Below are positions 404-6,067 of a stretch of DNA of 23,630 bases, piece by piece; the stretch's first letter is position 1, and each line of letters begins with the position of its first letter. Source of the stretch: a virus; the IMG/VR virus record IMGVR_UViG_3300021061_000047, positions 1-23,630 of that record. One strand, 5' to 3'. The translations under genes and the position numbers were made by a program. Under the pieces are notes generated by a model. It saw only the letters and a program-made list of their open reading frames with translations. It was not told the origin of the DNA and searched no databases.

Positions 404-1132
404 ATGGGGGTTTTGGGGATGGGGAAATTCAACGAAGTTACAATAACAATTCCCAGCTGGGATAAGTTCAACGCACGTAAAGACATCACTCGTCCGCATT
501 GGTTTCGGATGGATCATTCCATCTTTGAAGATCCAAAATTTTACAATCTAGAGCCAGCTGATTGGGCAGTGCTTCTCTATCTTCTTTGTCAGAAATCAAA
601 GAGTGGCGAGGGGTTTCAAGTCAACTATGCGCATGCGCAGCGAGTCGCAGGGCTTTCATCAAGGGTTGTTGATTCTGCGATCGAGAAATTGCTGCAATCT
701 CAATTCATTACGGTTTCAAACACGGCGGCGGCCGCGGACGTTACGTTCCCGGCCGGGGACGAACGGATCCGGCCGGATCCGTCCAATACAAACAAACAAA
801 CAAACAATACAGACAGCACGTGCGCGTTCGCGCCCGAACGGCTTCGAGAGATCTGGAATCAGAACCGAGGAATCTTGAGCGAATGTATCAAGCTCACTCC
901 TTCACGACTCGCTGCTGCCAGGAAGCGAATCGAAGAAAACGGAGACCCTGAGTATTGGGCTGACATCGTTCGCACCATCGCCAGCGATCCATTCTTCCAA
1001 GGCAGGAACGAACGAAAGTGGCGCGCGACGTTCGACTATCTCCTGCGGCCCGACACCCACATCAGGATCGCCGAAAGACGGCTCAGTAATCCAAAGCTCG
1101 CCTTAATCGAGAAAGCGATGAGTGAACTATGA
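404..1132 (+). CDS. Phage replication initiator-like protein (wHTH plus DnaD/O-type C-terminal domain)
   Basis: This is a probable replisome organiser that would bind the phage origin and recruit the helicase encoded immediately downstream. Residues about 30-105 look like a winged helix (hydrophobic helices, YAHAQRVAGLSSRVVDSAIEKL as recognition region). Residues 106-140 form a low-complexity linker rich in A, N, T and Q. The C-terminal part (about 145-220) has the SDPFFQGRNERKWRATFDYL stretch that I know from phage replication proteins of the DnaD/O-like kind. The start may be ATG 404 or ATG 419; both have G-rich upstream sequence and neither is decisive. It overlaps the helicase gene by 4 bases (ATGA), so the two are probably coupled. 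The linker-coding DNA contains a strong palindrome and an A-rich tract (see 728-808), as in lambda O, where the origin lies in the initiator gene. A general wHTH regulator is the alternative. Confidence 0.75.
   Translation: MGVLGMGKFNEVTITIPSWDKFNARKDITRPHWFRMDHSIFEDPKFYNLEPADWAVLLYLLCQKSKSGEGFQVNYAHAQRVAGLSSRVVDSAIEKLLQSQFITVSNTAAAADVTFPAGDERIRPDPSNTNKQTNNTDSTCAFAPERLREIWNQNRGILSECIKLTPSRLAAARKRIEENGDPEYWADIVRTIASDPFFQGRNERKWRATFDYLLRPDTHIRIAERRLSNPKLALIEKAMSEL
728..808. other. Candidate replication origin inside the initiator gene
   Basis: Within the linker-coding part of the initiator gene lies a 20-bp perfect palindrome (763-782, ACGGATCCGGCCGGATCCGT). It is preceded by a second dyad (CGTTC 744-748 / GAACG 761-765 around CCCGGCCGGG 748-757) and followed at once by an A-rich tetranucleotide tract (CAAA repeated, 789-807). 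GC-rich dyads next to an easily melted A-rich tract, inside an initiator gene and followed by a helicase gene, is the layout of lambdoid origins. The structure is seen; the origin role is inferred. Confidence 0.5.
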
Positions 1133-2007
1133 ACCTAGATAAATTCATCAAGGGCGATGCGCATGCGCAGACGATTCGCGAAACGTACGCAGACGCCGCT
1201 AAAGAGCTGCTTATGCCGTACCCATCGACGCCAATTGAGGGGTTTCCGAAGCTCAATAAGATCATCGGTGGATTCCGGCCGTACGAGTTCACAATCCTTT
1301 GCGGAGCTACTGGAATCGGAAAGACTACGCTCAACGCGAATCTCTCAAAGTCGTTCCTGATTCAACGAGTGCATCACTTCGTTGCAAGCGTTGAAACCGG
1401 TCACACTGATTTCAGTAAGCGAGTTATGTCGGCACTCGCTGGCGAAGACTGGAACACCGGTGAACCAGTGAACGTGGAACGGCTCAAAGCGTTTCACGCA
1501 AAGTACGGCGACTTGTTTCAATCCGACATTTTGAGCCTTTCGCTTTACGAGAATCGTTTCTCGGTTGAAGCGCTTATGAGCGACATCGCCTGGCATGTGA
1601 AATACCGAAAGTGTCAGCTTGCGATCATCGATAACTTAAACTTCTTTCTCGAAGTCACGCGTGCTGCTGATCAGATTATCGAGATGGATCGGGTGATCCA
1701 CGAGTTAATCATTTTCTGCAAGCAGGTGCCTGTACACGTGATCATGGTCATGCACCCGAAGAAAAACGAGTCAGGTCGGGTTGAATCTGAGTTCGATATC
1801 AAAGGCTCAAGCACCGCCGTTCAAGAGGCGCATAACGTGCTTTTATTTAATCGCGCTGGCGAAGACTTGATCGACGGCCGCTACGCCGATCTAGGTGATC
1901 GTGAAATCAAGATCGCAAAAATGCGGCGCAAGGGCCGCGCGGTCGGATCACGGCTCGTGCTGAAAGCAATTCAGGGCGTACTTTATGTCGAAGGAGCGGT
2001 TGTATGA
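1129..2007 (+). CDS. DnaB/RecA-fold replicative helicase (helicase domain only)
   Basis: This is a probable ring helicase that unwinds DNA at the phage fork using ATP. Walker A is GATGIGKT at residues 59-66, Walker B is LAIIDN at 164-169, and the VIMVMHPKK segment at 204-212 matches the motif 3 region of DnaB, Twinkle and T7 gp4 helicases. The segment FVASVETGHTDFSKRV (84-99) corresponds to the family's 'SLE...R' motif, and MRRKGRAVGSRLVLK (265-279) to the C-terminal R-rich strand. At 292 aa it has only the RecA core and lacks both the DnaB N-terminal domain and any primase domain. It overlaps its neighbours by 4 bases on both sides (1129-1132 and 2004-2007). No primase is recognisable in the window, so host DnaG or a divergent enzyme is presumably used. 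Confidence 0.85.
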   Translation: MNLDKFIKGDAHAQTIRETYADAAKELLMPYPSTPIEGFPKLNKIIGGFRPYEFTILCGATGIGKTTLNANLSKSFLIQRVHHFVASVETGHTDFSKRVMSALAGEDWNTGEPVNVERLKAFHAKYGDLFQSDILSLSLYENRFSVEALMSDIAWHVKYRKCQLAIIDNLNFFLEVTRAADQIIEMDRVIHELIIFCKQVPVHVIMVMHPKKNESGRVESEFDIKGSSTAVQEAHNVLLFNRAGEDLIDGRYADLGDREIKIAKMRRKGRAVGSRLVLKAIQGVLYVEGAVV

Positions 2008-5633: not shown

Positions 5634-5873
5634 TTAGACGGGCGCGTAGATTTCTTTTTCGTCGTCGCTTTTTTCTTCATCACTGTCTTTTTCTTTTGTG
5701 CCATCTGCAAACTCCTTCACGGTTTGACGGAAAAGCTCACGCTCCTCCGCGCTTAGGTTGATTAGAGATAGAAGCTCCGTGAGGGGATCTTTCAGCGTTT
5801 CAAAGATCATCGCCATCTTGAGATAGCGCGCGATGATAATCTGCTCGTTCGTATACTTCACGACTTCAGTCAT
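5634..5873 (-). CDS. Hypothetical acidic protein, 79 aa (minus-strand operon, second gene)
   Basis: This is a helical protein (about residues 9-55) with a very acidic tail of about 20 residues (KEKDSDEEKSDDEKE). Its start overlaps the stop of the upstream minus-strand gene (ATGA at 5870-5873), so the two are co-translated. A partner or antagonist of the putative DNA-binding protein encoded first is a natural guess, and the acidic tail could mimic DNA, but no family is recognised. The strand is opposite to every other gene here except its operon mate. Confidence 0.65.
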   Translation of the reverse strand: MTEVVKYTNEQIIIARYLKMAMIFETLKDPLTELLSLINLSAEERELFRQTVKEFADGTKEKDSDEEKSDDEKEIYAPV

Positions 5874-6067
5874 CCTGTTTGCTCTTTTGATTCAAGACCT
5901 AGGTAAGCCGCGACTTCTTCAATGCCGGAATACAAGCGGTCGCGTGCCCACTGGTTGAAATCAAAGTTCTTTGCCTTCGCTTGATCAACGAGACTCTTAA
6001 AACGCGAGTCGACGCTAACCGTGAAGTTCTCTTTTAGCTTTCCATGTCTGATTTGGTACTTGTCCAT
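5870..6067 (-). CDS. Putative ribbon-helix-helix DNA-binding protein, 65 aa
   Basis: The order of a short strand (NFTVSVD, about residues 14-20), a helix (SRFKSLVDQAKAKN), a turn and a second helix (NQWARDRLYSGIEEVAAYL) is that of a CopG/Arc-type ribbon-helix-helix fold. These bind operator DNA as dimers and usually control their own promoter. The ribosome site AGGAGG at 6077-6082, 9 bases before the ATG, is one of the best in the window, which suggests high expression. Tandem and inverted repeats in the upstream region (6147-6263) are candidate operators. The call rests on pattern only. Confidence 0.6.
   Translation of the reverse strand: MDKYQIRHGKLKENFTVSVDSRFKSLVDQAKAKNFDFNQWARDRLYSGIEEVAAYLGLESKEQTG

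Follow-up and report, generated by a model that had tools for sequence, protein, structure and literature searches.

A probable replication origin of tandem dyads and a short-period ladder within the initiator gene of an uncultivated phage

Replication origins situated inside the gene for their own initiator are known from a few model phages. The initiator O of phage lambda reads DNA with its N-domain and recruits the helicase machinery with its C-domain. The lambda origin lies in the middle of the O gene, its iterons are imperfect inverted repeats, its minimal unwinding unit consists of two iterons and an AT-rich region, and O binds single strands (PMC7466680). In phage SPP1, oriL comprises direct repeats and an AT-rich unwinding region inside initiator gene 38 (PMC6316719). 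By what means initiators can open DNA that lacks an AT-rich zone is, according to one review, still an open question (PMC5043065). In bacterial oriC, the DnaA-trio is a short motif repeated at regular intervals along one strand, next to the double-strand binding sites, and has been proposed to be read in single-stranded form (PMC10797057).

The locus described here is part of an incomplete virus record of 23,630 bases, which was analyzed as a whole (the window). Its layout resembles that of lambda O/ori: the putative origin lies in the middle of an initiator gene and consists of tandem imperfect inverted-repeat iterons of 18–20 bp followed by a candidate opening tract, and the initiator possesses an O-like C-domain (residues 129-227, PHROG 345 "replication initiation O-like", E 4e-14; Table 1). 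It differs from lambda in having three units instead of four, in the tract, which in the relatives of the window is an AC[A/G] ladder of 30-66% GC whereas that of lambda is AT-rich, and in the next gene, which encodes a DnaB-type helicase and not a P-type loader. No sequence relation was detected between the N-domain and that of lambda O (the PHROG 345 match covers the C-terminal part only), with which a shared fold is still compatible. The parallel to lambda drawn by an earlier reading of the DNA without database searches (the sequence-only reading) is a good one as regards the layout, less so for the neighboring gene product. That a helicase gene comes next was correct; the two genes overlap by 4 bases. 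An O-like initiator gene directly upstream of a DnaB-type helicase gene is also present in HK97 (O) and in phage ST104 (P22-type gene 18); both contain mid-gene DNA repeats according to the same tandem test as applied here (see below), and their C-domain is related to that of a locus with the C-domain type of the window (L017), but the repeat sequences differ and their N-domain has no detected relation to that of the window. SPP1 gp38/oriL, likened here on the basis of its published description, shares the origin inside the initiator gene but differs by a second origin, oriR, elsewhere.

Table 1. Features of the putative in-gene origin in the window, and repeat make-up of linker DNA in related initiator genes
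Feature	Position	Strand	Description
Replication initiator gene, 242 aa	404..1132	+	winged-helix-like N-domain, disordered linker, O-like C-domain
Dyad/iteron unit 1, ACGGCGGCGGCCGCGGACGT	722..741	no strand	14/20 identical to unit 2, 13/20 to unit 3; 8/10 arm pairs
Dyad/iteron unit 2, ACGTTCCCGGCCGGGGACGA	743..762	no strand	13/20 identical to unit 3; 8/10 arm pairs
Dyad/iteron unit 3, perfect palindrome ACGGATCCGGCCGGATCCGT	763..782	no strand	10/10 arm pairs; 18-bp core also in L028 initiator linker, in another codon register
AC[A/G] ladder, candidate unwinding or single-strand recognition tract	788..820	+	AC[A/G] every 4-5 bases, 8 units; (ACAA)5 at 788-807
DnaB-type replicative helicase gene, 292 aa, C-terminal ATPase domain only	1129..2007	+	Pfam DnaB_C E 3.6e-13; PHROG 239 DNA primase/helicase E 1.7e-32
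L018 linker			ACGTTACG-type 11-mers, then (ACGG)
L031 linker			ACGTAACGTGG-type 11-mers, then (ACGA)
L038 linker			CGTACGGATG-type 11-mers, then (ACAA)~9
L017 linker			CTAGCAAACG, then CTCTTA
L016 linker			CGCGAACACGG x3.6, then AAGA
L025 linker			three CGTCAC..GTGACG-type dyads

The AlphaFold2 model of the initiator (mean pLDDT 80.7) contains two confident parts, separated by a disordered stretch at residues 111-139. Since pLDDT is below 50 at residues 111-125 and 127-139, and the palindrome encodes about residues 120-127, the placement of the palindrome in linker-coding DNA by the sequence-only reading is supported. Residues 25-134 matched PHROG 186 ("DnaD-like helicase loader", E 3.8e-5). 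The best structural resemblance of the N-domain, to the winged helix 2yu3, is weak (VIA-align Z 6.3, below the safe level stated for the tool); Foldseek gave no PDB match at E<=0.001, and searching PDB sequences with alignments of the N- and C-domains gave none at useful E-values. Upstream of the initiator gene, a small ORF (36-362) carries an exact 22-bp direct repeat, GGTGTGAAAAAAGTGTGAAGTC, at both of its ends (22-43 and 316-337). The main genes of the window are on the plus strand, and two small overlapping ORFs (79 and 65 aa) are on the minus strand at 5634-6067.

The perfect 20-bp palindrome reported previously was confirmed, and its stated position (763-782) is right; no other perfect palindrome in the window has arms of 10 (the runners-up have arms of 7), and no second viral contig carries the exact 20-mer. 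Its claimed rarity stands, in that arms of at least 10 occurred in 6/200 (order-1) and 3/200 (order-3) Markov versions of the whole window, and within the initiator gene in 11/5000 synonymous permutations and 9/5000 recodings with the codon usage of the window. Taken alone, such a palindrome is unusual but could still have arisen by chance; a chance palindrome was rejected on the strength of the synonymous permutations and of the 18-bp core in the L028 initiator gene (see below). The palindrome is, moreover, the last unit of a larger array; the sequence-only reading overlooked one further dyad, at 722-741, as well as the tandem layout. The flanking symmetry noted as CGTTC/GAACG around CCCGGCCGGG is more accurately an 18-bp dyad at 744-761 in which a single pair is mismatched. 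All three 20-bp units have CGGCCG at their center. The best three-dyad array comprises 26 of 30 pairs, which was equaled in none of 300 synonymous permutations (highest 23), in a test for which the spacings of 20-22 bp were picked post hoc and the array was already known. Units 1 and 2 are spaced by 21 bases and units 2 and 3 by 20, which places unit 3 in another codon phase, so that a repeat in the peptide cannot explain all three. Folding the region 700-850 as DNA or RNA was unexceptional (z of -1.18 and -1.25), which disposes of a single-strand hairpin or RNA structure; Rfam and ARAGORN found nothing over the window. Promoter and terminator signals were likewise rejected, because matches within 1-2500 did not exceed those in shuffled sequence. 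The sequence ATGCGCATGCGCAG, the core of which (TGCGCATGCGCA) is a 12-bp palindrome, is present twice, at 627-640 in the initiator gene and at 1157-1170 in the opening part of the helicase gene, flanking the candidate origin; both copies code for AHAQ, and 0.07 matches are expected in the window when one mismatch is allowed.

With the helicase of the window as query, 6 and then 18 viral loci were found, and the ORF preceding each helicase was an initiator of mosaic build; searches with the N-domain brought in further members. The N-domain type of the window is also present in L009, L018, L020, L021, L022, and L023, its C-domain in L015, L017, L019, and L037, and the pairing of N- and C-domains differs between loci. 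According to Tandem Repeats Finder, most linkers contain an array of 10-11 or 20-22 bp, an array of 4-7 bases, or the former and then the latter. Across 27 related initiators, the linker repeats differ in sequence but keep their position and layout. Among named phages, tblastn with the window initiator gave one weak match and with the L025 initiator 17 records, and none with the initiators of L022, L038, and L032; when bacterial and archaeal genomes were scanned twice for N-domain relatives, 0/21 and 0/14 stretches were confirmed.

The repeats were evaluated in these 27 non-redundant initiators with a tandem test, in which the best segment at periods of 4-23, multiples of 3 excepted, was set against 500 synonymous permutations. 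Left out of the counts in this work were L003-L008, which are the same contigs as L010/L013/L014/L016/L018/L026, L026, which duplicates L010, L039, a close copy of L038, the contigs already counted (L029, L033, L035, L036, L041, L053-L057, L060, and L062-L066), and L067, a non-initiator with a 22-residue match in an unrelated ORF; the start codons of L016, L019, L021, L027, L032, and L040 were shifted downstream, toward the conserved start, ahead of the tandem test. The signal was significant at p<=0.01 in 19/27 initiators and at p<=0.05 in 23/27 (the window, p=0.014), while four (L010, L013, L014, and L015) did not reach significance. The center of the best segment was at 0.38-0.54 of the gene in 25/27. 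In contrast, the helicase genes of 18 of those phages, taken as tblastn match ranges plus the window gene and not as full genes, gave 0/18 at p<=0.01 and 2/18 at p<=0.05. In lambda O, a positive control, the best segment (ATCCCTCAAAACGAGGG...) began at the annotated iterons, and 1/500 permutations scored as high; for HK97 O and ST104 gene 18 the numbers were 0/500 and 1/500. Lambda P, HK97 P, and Shimadzu DnaC were unremarkable, and the Shimadzu and Marinitoga initiators were not significant (30/500 and 67/500). The comparison of initiators strongly supports a DNA-level function of the linker repeats and shows, as far as sequence comparison goes, selection acting on the DNA and not on the peptide.

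One relative is particularly informative with respect to the dyads. The L028 initiator is 39% identical to that of the window over the BLASTP alignment, and its linker carries CGGATCCGGCCGGATCCG, the 18-bp palindrome core common to both, but in codon phase 1 (encoding PDPAGS), whereas the window uses phase 0 (RIRPDP). RPDP is in frame in both proteins, and 12 of the 18 bases could therefore be common by descent. However, the two genes complete the palindrome on different sides of the RPDP codons, with a displacement of 10 bases that common coding descent leaves unexplained. Of the 2.9 million viral contigs in IMG/VR, 6 contain the 18-mer, at 4 places that are independent of each other; the remaining three of these (L043; L044=L045; L046=L047) are in ORFs without sign of an initiator. 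A check proposed with the sequence-only reading, that the dyad should be kept while the linker peptide drifts, was passed, both by the core in its other register and by the layout kept in the 27 initiators.

Downstream of the dyads, the CAAA repeats noted earlier (789-807) were confirmed, as (ACAA)5, and belong to a longer ladder of AC[A/G] triplets (Table 1), which is the only AC[A/G] chain to reach 19 bases when both strands of the window are scanned. By itself it is matched by 18/1000 synonymous permutations. GC content of the tract is 0.36 versus 0.51 for the gene; an AT-rich tract beside the iterons is, thus, present in the window. At least six AC[A/G] triplets at 4-5 base spacing on the coding strand were found in 13 of the 16 genes with the N-domain type of the window (the exceptions being L021, L023, and L030), compared with none of 11 genes with other N-domain types, in which the longest chain was 2; in 10/16 genes of the former type, no more than 10/1000 synonymous permutations matched the ladder. 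The 13 chains range in GC from 0.30 to 0.66 and are scarce in T (0-0.18). Spacing and strand, therefore, are kept and AT-richness is not, which argues that the tract is not simply an AT-rich melting zone. The ladder was also present in all three held-out initiators, as predicted before the new scan (L058, L059, and L061, with 9, 6, and 11 units; L058 and L059 are alike and stem from one sample, and L061 is truncated by the contig end), in each case preceded by arrays of 10-11 or 21 bp. In 14 of 15 genes (L061 excluded), iteron-like periodicity scored higher on the 5' side of the ladder; one gene was tied, and in none was the 3' side ahead. The ladder may be a single-strand recognition element resembling the DnaA-trio, with which it has in common the regular repetition of a short motif along one strand, next to putative double-strand binding sites. 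It differs in period (4-5 instead of 3), in motif (AC[A/G] on the coding strand instead of 3'-[G/A]AT-5'), and in its putative reader, a winged-helix-like phage initiator and not the AAA+ protein DnaA. Neither a ladder of period 4/5, nor its tie to an N-domain type, nor the origins of this group were found described in the open-access literature searched, as far as its available text goes; it is the ladder and its link to the N-domain that appear to be new, the in-gene origin itself being already known from lambda and SPP1 oriL.

To compare linker DNA across domain swaps, N- and C-parts were clustered separately, linker limits were drawn by hand, and similarity was expressed as 4-mer cosine. 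Pairs having only the N type in common reached a mean of 0.336 (86 pairs) versus 0.112 for unrelated pairs (158 pairs), not equaled in 2000 label shuffles; with only the C type in common, the mean was 0.139 (62 pairs), little above 0.112 and reached in 438/2000 shuffles. The shuffles ignore kinship, and the linker is contiguous with both domains. For the window linker, cosines were 0.375 to L018 and 0.296 to L009 (same N type), but 0.165-0.244 for its C type (L015/L017/L019). The distribution of similarities shows the linker repeats going with the N-domain, and not with the C-domain, across domain swaps.

Three other explanations of the repeats were weighed. Disordered linkers do hold simple repeats, and the modest significance of the window ladder (18/1000) would also suit slippage arrays that are a by-product of a low-complexity linker, devoid of any function as DNA. 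This is nevertheless very unlikely: none of the periods (4, 7, 10, 11, and 22) is divisible by 3, synonymous permutations are exceeded in 19/27 initiators versus 0/18 helicases, one 18-mer is used in two codon registers, and neither the fixed order of iterons and ladder (14/15) nor the ladder motif foretold in held-out genes (3/3) would be expected of such arrays. An operator of the initiator gene or the helicase gene, bound by the initiator or another phage regulator, stands only a slim chance against an origin, although dyad symmetry and a winged-helix-like N-domain suit it too. The site is located some 320-380 bases inside the gene, no promoter-like match is present on the coding strand within 1-2500 (the two matches are both on the minus strand, no more than in shuffles), and an operator leaves the ladder, and its fixed place 3' of the dyads, unexplained.

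The fact that N- and C-domains are reshuffled against each other at the linker could also indicate that the repeats are the recombination junction for swaps of initiator domains between phages. This is barely credible, because the linker DNA goes with the N-domain, which puts the breakpoints mostly 3' of the repeats, and because the repeats of different N types are too dissimilar to offer common homology. A phage replication origin nested within the gene for its own initiator, and working like lambda O/ori and SPP1 oriL, is very probably the correct interpretation, as the sequence-only reading had suggested; it is supported by the layout kept across 27 initiators and by the lambda O control, in which the same procedure picks the iterons.

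In the window and its relatives, the order within the linker-coding DNA is tandem dyad/iteron repeats and then the ladder on the coding strand. By analogy to lambda, the winged-helix-like N-domain would bind the dyads as dimers and bend or strain the DNA, the adjoining tract would open, and the C-domain would then bring in the helicase encoded next door. Between opening and loading, the initiator would hold one strand of the tract via the regularly spaced AC[A/G] triplets (complement [C/T]GT), a step modeled on the DnaA-trio. Placing the site inside the gene would keep site and reader together through phage recombination. A more far-reaching proposal, which we put forward tentatively and consider rather doubtful at present, is that phage initiators with an N-domain of the KYNPRKDxKxxxWFR type, an undescribed group, open their origin not by AT-richness but through sequence-specific single-strand reading of a ladder of 4-5 bases (AC[A/G]N; complement N[C/T]GT), which would make the ladder a phage-made counterpart of the DnaA-trio. 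Other N types would use other periods (6, CTCTTA; 7, CTGTAAT), and ladder and iterons together would form a code that is read by, and travels with, each N-domain through domain swaps. Reading of the ladder as single-stranded DNA, if it takes place, would constitute a second system, unrelated to DnaA, for opening without an AT-rich zone. The in-gene layout (iterons, short-period ladder, linker DNA) can be recognized computationally in uncultivated phages, the linkers of which share little DNA sequence, and offers a means of locating origins in viral dark matter and of pairing each with its reader.

Repeats were also observed outside the linkers of the relatives. A second 21-bp repeat is situated in the region coding for the N-domain in L009 (bases 210-256 of the initiator gene, 2.2 copies) and L061 (bases 224-288, 3.1 copies), and no such stretch is present in other members. 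Approximately 4 kb past the helicase gene, at 9653-9709 of L003/L008, two overlapping 18-bp palindromes, CACTAGTGTACACTAGTG and CACTAGTGATCACTAGTG, are followed by an 18-bp T/A palindrome.
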